A DNA stretch of 64,000 nt from Candidatus Krumholzibacteriota bacterium (GTDB lineage: Bacteria > Krumholzibacteriota > Krumholzibacteriia > Krumholzibacteriales > Krumholzibacteriaceae): assembly GCA_016933255.1 (NCBI GenBank), contig JAFGBF010000018.1, positions 1 through 64,000 on the forward strand, given 5' to 3'. Positions 24,550 to 37,219 of this stretch are shown piece by piece. Every line of letters begins with the position of its first letter. Within the stretch, counting starts at the first letter, position 1. The translations under genes were made by a program, and so were the position numbers. The notes below the pieces were generated by a model, which saw only the letters and a program-made list of their open reading frames with translations, had not been told where the DNA came from and ran no database searches.

Positions 24550-25851
24550 ATGAACCGTATTATGATTATCCTTGTTTTTTCAGCGATAGCCTTTTTTGGA
24601 TGCAGCGACAATTCGGTCGCGCCGGGAGGCGGCGGTTTTGTGACAGGCGAATATGTCGTATTCGCCTGGAACGACCTCGGCATGCACTGCCTGAACGACT
24701 CATACGACAAAGCGGTGGTCCTGCCTCCCTACAATACATTATGGGCACAGGTCATCAGAAGGGGAGACCCTCCGCAGGTAGTCACTGCCGGGCTGACGGT
24801 AGAATACTCCATCTCTGTCAACACATTCTCGTACGGAAAGAGGAAATACGGCCAGTTCTGGGACAATGCCAGTGAGATCTTCCGCTCCTTCCCGGGTTTT
24901 GTGGCGCCCCCGGTCGACATCGGTATGGCCGGAAAGGGACTTTCCGGTGAGATGGAGGCTGCCGATGGCCATTTCGTAGCTGAAGGGATCCCTCTTACTC
25001 CGGTCTACGATTCAGGTACCTGGGACCCGTATCAGGTGGCGGTAATAACGGTAAAAGACGCACAGGGATCAGTCGTCGCTTCAACAAGAGCGACTGTCCC
25101 GGTCTCTGACGAGATGAACTGTAAGCTCTGCCACGGGACTGGGGCCTGGGACGATGTAATAGCTGACCACGATCGCCTGCATGCGACCGATCTATCTGAT
25201 TCGATCCCTTTTCTGTGCGCGTCATGTCATGGGAGCCCCGCCCTGGGTACTCAGGGGCCGGGTTCGGCCGGGATATACCTTTCCGAGGCTATCCACGGAG
25301 CACATTCAACGCGTGGTGCATCCTGCTACCAATGCCACCCGGGGGAGATCACCAGGTGTATGCGGAGCACAAACCACACTGCTCCGGACGGGAACTGCGA
25401 GACATGCCATGGCACACTTGCCCAGGTTGCAGCGTCGATCGATGCAGGAAGGACCCCCTGGGCAGAAGAACCGGCGTGCGGGGCGTGCCATACAGGTGTG
25501 CCGGGGATGGAGGCGGAGGGGATACTCTTCCGCAACGCCTCGGGGCATGGATCGGTCTATTGCGCGGCGTGTCATAACTCACCGCACGCGATGTACGCTT
25601 CAGAGCTCGTCGCAGATAACTTTCAGCCTCTCCAGTACCAGGGATATACCGGGCTCGTCAAGACTATAGGAAGCTGCGGCGTATGCCACGAGGACTCAAG
25701 AGGAGAACCTGGAGATATGGCAGAATTCGAGGAGAAACACGGAGGGGCAGACCCCGAACGTGCGATCGCGTGCCACACCTGCCATACCGTGGTAAGGAAC
25801 AATACTCCCAAATGGCCGCACGAGTGGAAATGGAACGACAGTCTGGATTGA
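24550..25851 (+). CDS. Octaheme c-type cytochrome lipoprotein
   Basis: Lipobox FFGCSDN; eight CxxCH motifs (CKLCH, CASCH, CYQCH, CETCH, CGACH, CAACH, CGVCH, CHTCH); 'WNDLGMHC' N-domain. Confidence 0.85.
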   Translation: MNRIMIILVFSAIAFFGCSDNSVAPGGGGFVTGEYVVFAWNDLGMHCLNDSYDKAVVLPPYNTLWAQVIRRGDPPQVVTAGLTVEYSISVNTFSYGKRKYGQFWDNASEIFRSFPGFVAPPVDIGMAGKGLSGEMEAADGHFVAEGIPLTPVYDSGTWDPYQVAVITVKDAQGSVVASTRATVPVSDEMNCKLCHGTGAWDDVIADHDRLHATDLSDSIPFLCASCHGSPALGTQGPGSAGIYLSEAIHGAHSTRGASCYQCHPGEITRCMRSTNHTAPDGNCETCHGTLAQVAASIDAGRTPWAEEPACGACHTGVPGMEAEGILFRNASGHGSVYCAACHNSPHAMYASELVADNFQPLQYQGYTGLVKTIGSCGVCHEDSRGEPGDMAEFEEKHGGADPERAIACHTCHTVVRNNTPKWPHEWKWNDSLD

Positions 25852-30791: not shown

Positions 30792-31547
30792 TCAGAGTCC
30801 GGTCGGAATATCCGTGAACCTTGTCCTGAGTCCGAGTTTTTCTTCAAGAAAAGAACCTAATGCTCTCACCCCGGGGGTCTCAGTCGCGTAGTGCCCGGCG
30901 AAAAAAAGATTGATCCTGTTTTCTCTGGCGACATGATACGATGAATGAGATGTTTCCCCTGTAAGAAGGGCGTCGCAGCGAGCCAGTGCCGCAGCCTGCA
31001 GCAGGGAAGCTCCTCCTCCCGATACGATCCCTATTTTCCTGATCTGTTTTTTTCCGAAAAGGAGCGAGTTTACCGGACCGCCGAAGATTCTTCTGATCTT
31101 CGCCGCAAAGGTCTTTGCCGAAACAGACCGTGCCAGAGTTCCGCACCTCCCGATCTCTACACCCGCGTATTCACCGAACGATGATGAGCTTTCCAGGCCA
31201 AGCATAGATGCGATACGTGCGTTATTGCCCAGGGTCGGATGACAATCGAGGGGGAGGTGGGCTGCATAGAGAGATATCCCGTTGAGAAGAAGAAGTCTGA
31301 TACGATTTGCCAGGATTCCCGTAACAGGCTCCATCTTGTTCCAGAAGATTCCGTGGTGGACTATCAGAAGCTGTGATCCCCAGCTTTTAGCTTCTCTGAT
31401 AGCTGCCTCGCAGGCGTCAACGGAGAGCGTGACCTTGTGCACCTCTCCAGACCCTTCTACCTGCAGTCCATTAAGGGATGAGTCTGCTTTGAACGCCTGA
31501 ATATCAAGAGTCTCATCGAGCAGATCTGTTATTTTATTCAATTTCAA
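30792..31547 (-). CDS. Nif3-like dinuclear metal-centre protein
   Basis: LQVEGSGEVHKVTLSVDAC, LIVHHGIFW, ISLYAAHLPLDCHPTLGNNA, LLTGETSHSSYHVARE, GHYATETPGVRAL. Confidence 0.93.
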   Translation of the reverse strand: MKLNKITDLLDETLDIQAFKADSSLNGLQVEGSGEVHKVTLSVDACEAAIREAKSWGSQLLIVHHGIFWNKMEPVTGILANRIRLLLLNGISLYAAHLPLDCHPTLGNNARIASMLGLESSSSFGEYAGVEIGRCGTLARSVSAKTFAAKIRRIFGGPVNSLLFGKKQIRKIGIVSGGGASLLQAAALARCDALLTGETSHSSYHVARENRINLFFAGHYATETPGVRALGSFLEEKLGLRTRFTDIPTGL

Positions 31548-32580
31548 CTGCTTTTTCCCTTCTGTCTTCGATCCCTTTTATTTTAAGTTCATTTCCGTAT
31601 CTTGATTCGAGTTTGAGCAGATCAGCGCGTTCCGGCTGATTTCGCGCCGCTCCGCCCATGTCTGTGGCTTTCAAAAAAAGTCTTCCCTTGAAGAATCTTG
31701 CTTCGATCTCCGTGAACGATATTCTATGTATACCGGTATCTACGATTATTGTCGAACCTGCGTGTTTCTGGTAAGTCCCTTCGTGGCCTCTGCGGCCGTT
31801 TATGACAATATCCATGCCGGGAACATCAGAAGCAAAACTTACGCTTTTCTCCCACCCCAGGTGACTGATCGCAATAATCAGATCGCAGCCTTTTTTCTTA
31901 AGGACCGAGACAGCCTCCAGGGCGGTGATTCTCGGATCTTTGATCTTATAGTTTTTCGAGATGGAACTGTCTATCAATTCAAAGAACGAGGGGTCTGTCA
32001 CACCGAAGATCCCAACCCTGACCCCTTCTCTCATTCCGAAGAGGGTCCTTCTGCCCCCGAGGTATTTTATGATGTACGGTCTCGCGATCAGGCAGTCATC
32101 CCTGCGGTCGACGATATTTGATGAAACAAGTGGAAGACCGCCCTCGTTCGCGGCATTTCGCAACCTGTCTGTTCCGTAAAGAATATCGTTTGGACCGATA
32201 TTTACGGCATCATACCGCATAAGTCTCATCCCCTCGAAAAAATAGCGATAGTCGATCTCGTCCTCCTCCGACGCTTCGGGGCGGAAAAAATCGCCGGTAT
32301 CGAGAAGAAGGACAGGAGTATCAGCCCGCCTGCTGTCGATGAAGGAGGCCCACCTGGCCATCCCTGAAAAAACGTCTCTTCTTCATGTGCATGGTTCCCG
32401 GTATCCGTGAAGTTCGTTTGTAAGATAGATCCTGACGGTCGAACCATCGGGGACGCCCGCTGGATGATCGGAGCTGGCGATATATATCTTCAGGGGGATA
32501 TATATCAGCAGAAGCAGTATGAATACTGACAGGATAAGTTTAATAAACGGGGAAATAGCCGCAGCCGTCTTTCTACTCAT
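31534..32580 (-). CDS. Candidate selenoprotein: membrane-anchored UshA/5'-nucleotidase-like metallophosphatase with in-frame TGA (Sec66); split into two ORFs by the track
   Basis: ORFs 32383..32580 and 31534..32361 are in the same frame. Joined: ...VRIYLTNELHGYREPCT-[TGA]-RRDVFSGMARWASFIDSRR...LLLDTGDFF...; one TGA at 32385-32383 is the only interruption. Confidence 0.75.
32342..32365 (-). promoter_or_regulatory. Putative bacterial SECIS hairpin
   Basis: Minus strand, 17 nt after the TGA: AGGGA-U-GGCC-[AGGUG]-GGCC-UCCUU; single bulged U, GGU in apical loop. Confidence 0.6.
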
Positions 32581-35500
32581 ATTTCTTAAGCCGTGCGTAC
32601 AGTGTCGGTTTTGAGATGCCGAGGAGTTTTGCTGCTTTCTGCTTGTCTCCGGTCTCCTCGACCACTTTTTTAATTATCGAGGCCTCTACTTTTGGAAGTA
32701 ACGGGTCGTCGGTGGAATAATCAATATTTTTCAGAACATAATTGACGACATCATTAACTGAGTTCAGTGCCTGGGTTTCTGCGGCCTCGGTGTGTTCCAG
32801 AACGGGTTCGGGGAGGTCCTCAGGGAGGATAGTATCTTTTTTTGATATTATTATCATTCTCTTGATCATATTCTCGAGTTCCCTTACATTTCCCGGCCAC
32901 TCATAGCCAGTGAGGTAAGTCATCGCCTCAGGGGAGATATTCTTGGTAGGTATATTGTAAAGCCTGCAGAAGTTGGTCAGGAAGTGGTCGCAGAGCAGAG
33001 GGATATCTTCTCTTCTTTCGCAGAGGGGAGGGATCCTGATAGGAAACACATTTATCCTGTAGTAAAGGTCTTCCCGGAAAGCACCCTGATCGACCATCTT
33101 TTTCAGGTTCTTGTTAGTCGCGGTGATTATGCGGACATCAGTCTCGATCTCCCGGTTTCCTCCTACGCGGAAGAAGACCTGTTCCTCAAGGACCCTGAGA
33201 AGTTTGGACTGCAGCTGAAGCGGGATCTCGGCTATCTCATTGAGGTATATGGTGCTCCCTTTCGCTGTCTCAAAGTGGCCGATACTCTGTTTGTGCGCGC
33301 TGGTGAATGAACCGCGCTCATGGCCGAAAAGCTCGCTTTCAAGGAGATCCCTGGGGAAAGCGGCGCAGTTGATATGGTGGAAAGGTCTGGAGCCTCGCGG
33401 TCCCATGCTGTGGATCGCTTTCGCGAAATGATCCTTCCCGGATCCATTTGGTCCTGTCAGCAGAATAGTGGTATCCATATCCTTTATGCTTTCGACCAGT
33501 TCGAAGACCTGTCTGATCGCTGGAGATTTACCTATGATATCTTTGAATGTGACCCTTTTCTTCAGTCCCGGCACGTTGATCACTGAAGCGGAGACCTGTG
33601 TTTTATCCAGTTCAGCCATACGGCTTTCAAGAAATATTCCTTCTATTCCGAGCGCTATCTGCTGACTGAAGGCTACAAGGAAGCTGTGGTCCTTATCACT
33701 CGTTTCTCCCACTTTCTGCCTGGAGTCGAGGTAGAGAAATCCCGTCATCTCATTCTTTATCCATAATGGAGTACAGATTATTCCCGGGTGCTGCTTCAGA
33801 AACTCACTGCTTATTTTCCCTTCGGGTATCTTCGACCGCGAGACATCTATAGGATATCCGAGCTGCCTCGCTATATTGAGGATCGCTATAATATCCTTAT
33901 CGGCAAGGTCATGCCCTCCCTCGAACTCGCCGATCCTGGAGAGAATTCGGAACGAGTTCTGATCTTCATTCTGAAGAATAAGAGCTGCTCTCTCCATGCC
34001 GGTTATATTCCTCGCCGATTCCGTTACGGTAGCGTAGAGTTTTTTCGGGTCCTTGATCGTTCTAATAGAGGATATGATCCTGCAGAGTGCCCAAAAACGT
34101 GAGGAATCAGAGTGCAGTTTCCCCACCTCTTTCTTATTGCATTTTTCCAGATTATTCTGAAGCTGCTCTACCTGTTTAGGCAATTTCTCGTTCTCTCCCA
34201 GAAGCGATATCGATCGCAGGAGATATTCTCTCGCAAGGTTTTCATTCCCTTCATCGAGGTAGAGTTCGCCTATCTCGGCGGTGACAGATGCTGCAGTAGT
34301 CTTCCTGCCTAGCAGTGAAAGTTCGAAAATTGTCCCCTCGAGCTTCATCCGCCCTTTTTCCCGTTTTCCTTCTGCCAACAGGATCCTGCCCTCAAGCAGG
34401 TCGAGCAGTATTGTTTCGAGTCTGGACCCGATCGTGCTGTTCAGGTCTTTTGCCTGCCTCAGGAGTTCGGTCGCTTCCGACAGTTTCCCCTCAGCCAGGC
34501 TGAGTTCTCCGAGCCTGCGGAATACAATAGCTTTTTCCCTTATCGACTTTGTATTCTGGCAAATGGCAAGGTCTTTGAAATAATTCTCTCTGGCGGAGTT
34601 TCTGTCACCTTTTAGGAAAGAGATCTCGCCGATCGTGCCGAATATCTCCGCAAGGAGCTGCTGATTTCCGAGTTCAGCCGCGAGCCCTCTGGCAAGTCTG
34701 CAGTTCTTTTCCGCCTTCCCGATCTCTTCAAGATCCATATAGGCCAGAGCCAGATTAAGGTGTGCGACTGCAAGTCCGGGAAGGTTGTTGCTTTTCTGTT
34801 TGATCTCCATAGACCTGGTAAAATTATCAAGCGCGTCCTTTATCCTTCCCATCGATCTATACACCAGGGCCAGGTTGTTATATGTCGCACCTACGCCCTG
34901 TTCGTCGTTACATTCTTCGCGGATGACAAAGCATCTTTTGTGGCAGTCGAGAGCATCGTCATACCTGCTTCTGTTCCAGTTGATCGCGCCCATCAGGCTC
35001 AGTGATTCAGAGAGTTCCCTAGGATTCTGCTTTTTATCTACGATCTTATGGACTATCAGACAGTTTTCCCATGATTCGTCAAGCTGCCCGAGGCGGTAGT
35101 GTACCCATGCAAGATCGTTGTAAAGTTTTGCCCTCTCACTTGCAAGAATATACTCTCCATGCTTGTCGAGAGCCCTTTTCAGCAAACCTTCAGCTTTTTT
35201 GAACTCGCCTCTTTTTTCAAGTATATCGCACTCTCTTCTTACTGCTTTTGTCGCCAGGGAGCGGAGTTTATACAGTTCGTCGTTTTTTGCCGTTTCTTCC
35301 CTGCATTTTCTGTACAGACGCAGAGCCTTTTCAGCCTGTCCTATAAGAGAAAAGTAATCACCCAGTTCGAGATAGAATTTGAAATACATCTCCGGCGGAA
35401 GGCGGTGGGCAAGTTTTTTGTGCATAAAATATTCATTGAAGCTGTTAACGGCATTTATGCTTTTTCTTTCGAGAAGATCATGGAATATTTCCATTCCCTT

Positions 35501-37219
35501 AAAGGCGGCCTCTGTATCCTCGCAGCAGGAGACCAGATGGTAGAATGTGTAGGCGAGGGGAGTCTCCCTGTTTTCCCTGAGAATGTGGATGATATTATGG
35601 TGAAGTTCTTTTTTCCTTCTTGCCGGGATCGAAGCGAGTATAAGATTCGCCGAGCTTCTCGTCCTGATGCTGAAACACAGGCTGAGTCTTCGGTCGAAAA
35701 GGACGGAACGTTCCGCCGCTATATTCAAGAATCCCAGTGAAAATAAACGTTGGACAGTCGAGTAGAATATCTTTTCTTCCGTGGAATAGATCGATTTAAG
35801 GACTGAGAGAGGGACACTGAATCTGAACGCCGCGATAAAATCGATAACCGATCGCTCTTCTTCCGCCAGGATATCCAGGAGCGATTTCGATATATTATCT
35901 TTTGTATCACAAGATATTCCCGCTGCCATGAACCTGCATAATTCCCCGTAGTATGACAGCGATCTCCCGGCAGGAGCTTCCTTTTTGAACTTCTCTTTTA
36001 ACAGCTTGGGGAGAGACCTGGAGATGATCTTTTTCTTGTTGTTGTCATCAAGAGACGGCAATTCGATGAAGTTTGTCGCGAAATCATGTGATTTGCCCTC
36101 ATCCTGAAGGCTCTTCACGAAAGAATCTTCTGTGTCATCTCCAATAGCTGCTATTGCCATAAGGTGGCTGTCAAGTTCGACGGAGAGGCTTTTCAGTATC
36201 TGGCTGTAAAATATAGGTTCCTGGATATTTGTATCGATGATCATGCAGCTGGGGCCGTCCTTTTCCTCTTCAGGAGGAACGTCGCTGCATATATCCTGAT
36301 CTGTCAGGATTTTTCCGCTGCTGAACCCCCAGGAGCCTTTCATTTTGCATAAGGCTTCTTCGAGAAAAGATGTTTTCCCTTCACCGTCAGTCCCGGTGAT
36401 CAGTACGAATTGCTTTTTCCCTTCTTTCGCCATTAGAGCGAGCTGGTTCAGCCTCCTGATCTGGGAATGGTACGGCGTCTCAAGGTGCTTATTCAGGTAG
36501 AATGGGGGTATATACCGTTCGTCAAGCTCAAAAAGGGAGGTAAGCTCCTCCATCAGGGAATAATATTCTTTCGGTCCTGTCTGATAAGAAAGCGAGTACA
36601 GCCGTTTTGCAACTTCTCCGCACCGATCAGAACTTTCCCCGGCTAGAAAGCTGCTGAAAAAATGAAGTATCTTTCCTGCCGCCTGAAGGTCTCTGAAAAG
36701 AGGTTCACAGTCATCGACCTGCGGTGAGAACGATTTGTCGGCAAGGATCTCTCCAGGAACAAGGAAGGCCACGGGAAGGATCACGGGAGAATCATCGATG
36801 AAAATAACCGATTCAGCCGACAGATTATTGAAAAAGAGGCCGGATGAGATGATCTTCAGAATCTCGGAAATAAGCATTTTCAGAGTAGAAAACGATTTTT
36901 CCGGGCCGATCCGGGAAAGCTGGTCCGCCGGAGAAGTGATCCTGGTATATGAGAGAAGGAAAAAAATGCTATTGGTGTTTTCCTGCAGAGAGAGGATAGA
37001 GGGGATCGATCGAGACGCTTCCGAGAATAAAAAGTCCCGCATCTTCAGGTCATCCAGGGCGAGCCTGGCATTTTTTGCGACCCGCAGGTCAAATAACAGG
37101 TAGTCTTTTCCACTGAGAGAATCTGTAACTTCGAACCCGTTCCATAACGGCAGATCGTCGAGGGGGTTCCTGACCGTATAACGGGAAATGAAGTCCTGTT
37201 TTCCGTTTTTTCTGTTCAC
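32573..37219 (-). CDS. 1548-aa multidomain regulator: degenerate kinase-like N-domain, STAND-type ATPase, TPR, GAF, sigma54-activator-like AAA+, Fis-type HTH
   Basis: GTDGEGKTSFLEEA P-loop; TPR repeats (ATYNNLALVYRSMGRIKDALDNF); GAF-like segment; GPNGSGKD, ELFGHERGSFTSA, YRINVFPIRIPPL, WPGNVRELENM; C-terminal KQKAAKLLGISKPTLYARLKKY. Confidence 0.85.
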   Translation of the reverse strand: MNRKNGKQDFISRYTVRNPLDDLPLWNGFEVTDSLSGKDYLLFDLRVAKNARLALDDLKMRDFLFSEASRSIPSILSLQENTNSIFFLLSYTRITSPADQLSRIGPEKSFSTLKMLISEILKIISSGLFFNNLSAESVIFIDDSPVILPVAFLVPGEILADKSFSPQVDDCEPLFRDLQAAGKILHFFSSFLAGESSDRCGEVAKRLYSLSYQTGPKEYYSLMEELTSLFELDERYIPPFYLNKHLETPYHSQIRRLNQLALMAKEGKKQFVLITGTDGEGKTSFLEEALCKMKGSWGFSSGKILTDQDICSDVPPEEEKDGPSCMIIDTNIQEPIFYSQILKSLSVELDSHLMAIAAIGDDTEDSFVKSLQDEGKSHDFATNFIELPSLDDNNKKKIISRSLPKLLKEKFKKEAPAGRSLSYYGELCRFMAAGISCDTKDNISKSLLDILAEEERSVIDFIAAFRFSVPLSVLKSIYSTEEKIFYSTVQRLFSLGFLNIAAERSVLFDRRLSLCFSIRTRSSANLILASIPARRKKELHHNIIHILRENRETPLAYTFYHLVSCCEDTEAAFKGMEIFHDLLERKSINAVNSFNEYFMHKKLAHRLPPEMYFKFYLELGDYFSLIGQAEKALRLYRKCREETAKNDELYKLRSLATKAVRRECDILEKRGEFKKAEGLLKRALDKHGEYILASERAKLYNDLAWVHYRLGQLDESWENCLIVHKIVDKKQNPRELSESLSLMGAINWNRSRYDDALDCHKRCFVIREECNDEQGVGATYNNLALVYRSMGRIKDALDNFTRSMEIKQKSNNLPGLAVAHLNLALAYMDLEEIGKAEKNCRLARGLAAELGNQQLLAEIFGTIGEISFLKGDRNSARENYFKDLAICQNTKSIREKAIVFRRLGELSLAEGKLSEATELLRQAKDLNSTIGSRLETILLDLLEGRILLAEGKREKGRMKLEGTIFELSLLGRKTTAASVTAEIGELYLDEGNENLAREYLLRSISLLGENEKLPKQVEQLQNNLEKCNKKEVGKLHSDSSRFWALCRIISSIRTIKDPKKLYATVTESARNITGMERAALILQNEDQNSFRILSRIGEFEGGHDLADKDIIAILNIARQLGYPIDVSRSKIPEGKISSEFLKQHPGIICTPLWIKNEMTGFLYLDSRQKVGETSDKDHSFLVAFSQQIALGIEGIFLESRMAELDKTQVSASVINVPGLKKRVTFKDIIGKSPAIRQVFELVESIKDMDTTILLTGPNGSGKDHFAKAIHSMGPRGSRPFHHINCAAFPRDLLESELFGHERGSFTSAHKQSIGHFETAKGSTIYLNEIAEIPLQLQSKLLRVLEEQVFFRVGGNREIETDVRIITATNKNLKKMVDQGAFREDLYYRINVFPIRIPPLCERREDIPLLCDHFLTNFCRLYNIPTKNISPEAMTYLTGYEWPGNVRELENMIKRMIIISKKDTILPEDLPEPVLEHTEAAETQALNSVNDVVNYVLKNIDYSTDDPLLPKVEASIIKKVVEETGDKQKAAKLLGISKPTLYARLKKYE

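Follow-up and report, generated by a model that had tools for sequence, protein, structure and literature searches.

Within the window, by which is meant the whole stretch of 64,000 nucleotides that was analyzed, three minus-strand genes overlap end to end. A sigma-54 activator, in which Pfam recognizes TPR, GAF and Fis HTH domains (32573..37219), lies upstream, a gene for a short, putative UshA-like selenoprotein of 348 aa follows (31534..32580, from the ATG at 32580 to a TAA stop at 31536-31534), and a DUF34/NIF3 gene (30792..31547; Pfam PF01784) lies downstream. The stop of the activator overlaps the start of the selenoprotein gene by 8 nt and the NIF3 gene overlaps its stop by 14 nt; given these start-stop overlaps, the three genes are probably translationally coupled. 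When gene order was compared as far as the contigs reach, the activator adjoined the selenoprotein gene in all orthologous loci tested for synteny and NIF3 was a neighbor in most of them, the pair not being found side by side in genomes G002, G013 and G018. The conserved order is PtsN-like, zinc-ribbon, sigma-54 regulator, selenoprotein and NIF3, with RsgA before it and an S41 peptidase-like gene after it. The activator is 1548 aa long and also contains an AAA domain; its N-terminal part resembles, by eye, a degenerate protein kinase. Elsewhere in the window (24550-25851, plus strand), a gene encodes a protein of 433 aa that resembles a multiheme c-type cytochrome and contains numerous CxxCH motifs.

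The sequence-only reading had joined two separately listed open reading frames, the one downstream of the TGA being listed as 31534-32361 (-), into a single 348-aa minus-strand frame interrupted by one TGA. Upon re-reading of the frame, both the coordinates and the sequence proved correct. The lone TGA (32385-32383, minus strand) occupies codon 66 of 348, in the context ...TNELHGYREPCT[U]RRDVFSGMARWAS..., where it sits in YREPC-T-U. Together with the TGC codon of Cys64 (32389..32391, minus strand), a UGA read as selenocysteine (Sec) would form a C-x-U motif. Two further features of the protein are a predicted N-terminal membrane helix of residues 10-37 (32470..32553, minus strand), which is helical in the AlphaFold2 model and corresponds to a hydrophobic N terminus in the orthologues, and Cys232 (31885..31887, minus strand), a possible third thiol.

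Close orthologues were found in 17 of the 118 genomes searched, a set that includes the window protein itself; its identity to the other 16 is 38-64%. All carriers belong to one family-level lineage, probably within Krumholzibacteriota, and make up 17 of its 20 genomes, the three non-carriers having a completeness of merely 67-82%. Whether relatives hold TGA or a cysteine codon (TGC/TGT) at this place had been put forward as a check on the selenoprotein proposal. The codon in the residue-66 column is TGA in all 17, with Cys in none, and the surrounding motif is Y-[R/W]-x-P-C-[G/S/T]-U. C64, Sec66 and C232 are invariant throughout the set. The frame is open on either side of the TGA in 17/17 orthologues, which is far beyond chance. 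G013 and G018 each have one more TGA in frame, and G006 has a TAG; these codons were considered as extra Sec codons and rejected, since they lie near the C terminus and look like normal stops.

The earlier proposal that the UGA falls on the second Cys of a CxC motif held up, as a Cys paralogue in the host genome (C15:208270) reads SCGC there. The related expectation that homologues carry Cys at residue 66 was borne out by this paralogue and by none of the 17 orthologues. Genomes G020 and G021, from the sister family, carry orthologues (L037:1501-2331 and L039:630-1415, both on the minus strand) between the same regulator and NIF3. In these, C-x-U has lost its Cys as well as its Sec, with no Cys replacement; selA is still present in the two genomes.

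The best-matching family is NCBIfam NF041198 (UshA_like_PCGU), 'UshA-like (seleno)protein', with an E value of 7.5e-31. The window protein scores 107.3 bits and one orthologue (L022) 108.9 bits, both short of the family cut-off of 275 bits; the C-x-[U/C] that follows the first strand in this family is present in the window protein. Profile matches to YfkN, CpdB and a Thermus 5'-nucleotidase were also obtained. A Pfam scan of the window protein gave no match, Metallophos (PF00149) included, and PADLOC gave none either. The AlphaFold2 model, built from 4 alignment rows, has a pLDDT of 79.7, with the motif loop (residues 56-71) below 50 and thus of low confidence. Foldseek matched this model to 5'-nucleotidases (TMq ~0.66), so that sequence profiles and model both point to the nucleotidase-family fold.

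The sequence-only reading was wrong in taking this to be a family without known selenoproteins. The GOS survey of 2008 (PMC2398784) counted 76 sequences under 'COG0737, UshA-like, CxU', and UshA-like selenoproteins are listed in two reviews (PMC9312934 and PMC13188914) and described by NCBIfam models. That marine survey set UshA-like, SelD and FdhA apart as abundant families without a conserved Cys-based redox motif (PMC2398784). In the open-access papers, no mention was found of the short clade or of selenoproteins of Krumholzibacteriota, and they yielded no description of UshA-like selenoprotein chemistry.

With the NF041198 family the window protein shares the UshA-type fold, the C-x-U at the same place (EPCGU there) and the G-x-A-R that follows. 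In contrast to the long relatives, it has no C-terminal cytochrome c554-like CxxCH domain. Its clade is also short, has an N-terminal membrane helix, shows more eroded phosphatase ligands and stands separately: maximum-likelihood analysis places the 17 short selenoproteins together with the orthologues from the sister family on the same side of a branch that has a support of 100/100. The long relatives, which occur across the class, carry EPCGU or PAGU and a C-terminal CxxCH region, and Cytochrome_C554 was matched in both of those scanned (L053 and L045). The selenoprotein family itself has been known since 2008; the heme-free clade is a new branch of it. The host genome has a second UshA-like selenoprotein of the long type with cytochrome c554-like CxxCH motifs (L053:1681-3183, plus strand; G000:C25 ~153200-154700). 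Its motif is PAGU, in which the first Cys of C-x-U is gone and the Sec retained; the same is seen in G001 and G008, and G020 has AFGU.

Two other groups are more distant. NF049981, UshA-like (seleno)protein family 2, shares the UshA-like fold and a Sec near the first strand but is listed as CxxU rather than CxU (PMC13188914), and its match is weaker (E 1.7e-9; 37.5 bits against 140). The SoxB thiosulfohydrolase (TIGR04486; PDB 2wdc and 4uwq) belongs to the same superfamily, acts on sulfur chemistry and was found both as a weak profile match (E 1.1e-10) and by Foldseek; the window protein, however, reaches 40 bits against a TIGR04486 cut-off of 550 bits.

The naming of the protein as a metallophosphatase stands as regards its UshA/5'-nucleotidase fold; a function of that kind is doubtful, since the clade conserves neither the canonical metal ligands nor the catalytic His. 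The ligands of UshA, which lie in DxH, GD, GNHE, SH and GHxH, and the catalytic His were placed by alignment to solved relatives at residues 56, 58, 97, 130, 240, 263 and 265 and at residue 131, respectively. All seven ligand positions vary among the 17 orthologues. Position 58 holds eight different residues, position 97 D, N or G, and position 263 R, H, K or P; His is found at position 240 in 12/17. No orthologue has Asn at position 130, which corresponds to the Asn of GNHE, or His at the catalytic position 131 (0/17 each). In contrast, the 5'-nucleotidases and 2',3'-cyclic phosphodiesterases of the YfkN/CpdB/UshA type (PDB 3gve, 3jyf, 1ush and 2z1a) share the fold and possess the di-metal ligands in full, along with the GNHE catalytic motif. 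We infer that the conserved working part is the C-x-U rather than the di-metal center.

These positions also bear on whether the same selenoprotein could still be an active metallophosphatase or nucleotidase, with the C-x-U as an additional metal ligand or as a redox switch at the di-metal site. Such an enzyme would fit the best structural matches, which are 5'-nucleotidases and cyclic phosphodiesterases, and H58, D97 and H240 of the window protein remain residues of ligand type. Against this stands the variation of every ligand position and of the catalytic His across the clade, and we regard an active phosphatase as unlikely, if still worth serious consideration.

The host genome (2.58 Mb in 31 contigs) was searched for selA, selB, selC and selD, as had been suggested, and all four are present. 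The match to selA has 477 bits, above the cut-off, and that to selB 371 bits; there are two selD genes. The tRNA-Sec gene (selC) was matched by Rfam with 52 bits, the gathering score being 47, even though it is cut by the contig end, and its anticodon loop CTTCAAA corresponds to a UCA anticodon. ARAGORN did not report a tRNA-Sec in this genome, because the contig stops inside the gene. Across the class, selA was found in 76 of 78 genomes. The selD loci, L016 (G000:C25:225943-226863, minus strand) and L015 (G000:C25:219031-219957, plus strand), are ~7 kb apart; one of the two genes has an in-frame TGA and is likely a Sec-SelD, and the other lies inside a 762-aa open frame, a possible fusion.

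Were the TGA a real stop, the products would be an anchor peptide of 65 aa and a protein of 275 aa with a start of its own (ATG 32361, Met74). Met74 is present in 16/17 orthologues, which makes an internal start formally possible. However, the column holds TGA alone, with no other stop and no sense codon in any of the 17; residues are conserved across it, with YREPC before and mostly K/R directly after; a product of the internal open reading frame would lack the fold's first strand; and the host has the full Sec machinery. Termination at this codon is thus very improbable.

A lone nonsense codon in a metagenome-assembled genome could also be a sequencing error or the mark of a decaying pseudogene, either of which would have undone the selenoprotein proposal. 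Neither was borne out. The same TGA is shared by 17 independent assemblies from 11 genera, the operon is conserved, and dN/dS is far under 1 both before and after the UGA, with values of 0.09-0.26 past it in five pairs of near relatives. The shared TGA and the low dN/dS therefore exclude error and decay for practical purposes. Reassignment of UGA in the lineage, for example to Trp, has the in-frame TGA itself in its favor and nothing more; TGA closes 28 of 44 mechanically chosen long open reading frames in the window, as the sequence-only reading had expected of an ordinary stop, so UGA is not reassigned, and motif-bearing homologues without UGA have Cys, not Trp, at the aligned position, which leaves this explanation with a negligible probability.

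Shortly past the UGA lies a SECIS-like hairpin of the form GGGA-(U)-GGCC-AGGUG-GGCC-UCCU (32343..32364, minus strand), with a bulged U at 32360 and an apical loop at 32355-32351. The GGU of its loop is 28 nt past the UGA, and the hairpin overlaps the codons for GMARWAS. A stem-loop at this place with a G in the apical loop matches the consensus form of such elements. The bulged U and the GGU loop resemble the SECIS of E. coli fdhF, and the spacing is within the range of bSECIS models. The form GGGA-(U)-GGCC-[A/C]GGUG-GGCY-UCCY or a near variant occurs in 16/17 orthologues; the same hairpin was not found in the remaining one (L035). Synonymous codons within it are frozen: Ser is TCC in 14/14, Ala GCC in 16/17 and Gly GGG in 15/17, and the Arg codons are only AGG or CGG in 17/17. 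For codon homogeneity, five hairpin codons show an excess of 0.44, compared with one of 0.05 for 82 conserved codons elsewhere (p = 4.5e-4). In place, 94% of the hairpin cells are paired, compared with at most 81% when the hairpin is slid. The mean fold energy is -12.9 kcal/mol versus -9.4 +/- 0.66 kcal/mol for synonymous shuffles, a difference whose significance is overstated because the sequences were treated as independent. A search for covariation across the orthologues found no compensatory changes, the pairs varying on one side or breaking, and an Rfam search of the locus at lax thresholds gave no match. The case for the RNA therefore comes from the frozen synonymous codons, the loop position and the energy, and since the hairpin coincides with the codons of a conserved motif in the protein, constraint on RNA structure and on protein is partly confounded. 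Just outside the hairpin, the two Lys codons after the UGA (window 32377-32382) are AAG in 14/14 and 13/14 of the Lys-bearing sequences, a second frozen synonymous stretch.

Taken together, the gene very probably encodes a selenoprotein, as the member of a short heme-free clade of the UshA-like family. The UGA at 32385-32383 would be decoded as selenocysteine by the SelA, SelB, SelC and SelD of the host, with the hairpin downstream as the putative SECIS element directing insertion. The gene product would cross the membrane once and so anchor a domain of the UshA/5'-nucleotidase (calcineurin-like) fold, and it would come from an operon shared with the sigma-54 regulator and NIF3. In the clade, the phosphatase metal center appears eroded and Cys64-x-Sec66 is kept invariant, which suggests that the working part is the C-x-U, as a selenenylsulfide/thiol or soft-metal site on the outer side of the cytoplasmic membrane. 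Most likely, the protein would then be a redox or thiol protein that is tethered to the membrane and carries C-x-Sec on the worn-out scaffold of a phosphatase. That redox or metal chemistry takes place at the C-x-U has about an even chance of being right. The stronger proposal, that a scaffold without its di-metal center was reused as a membrane-tethered, heme-free and obligatory Cys-x-Sec catalyst or soft-metal carrier with a function unlike that of any nucleotidase, we hold to be equally balanced.

With this clade, the UshA-like selenoproteins gain a clearly supported subgroup that escapes current annotation models, and ordinary pipelines will therefore split the gene at the UGA. Retention of C-x-U while the phosphatase ligands vary shows which part of the protein matters, and the clade offers a small heme-free protein for testing UshA-like selenoprotein chemistry.
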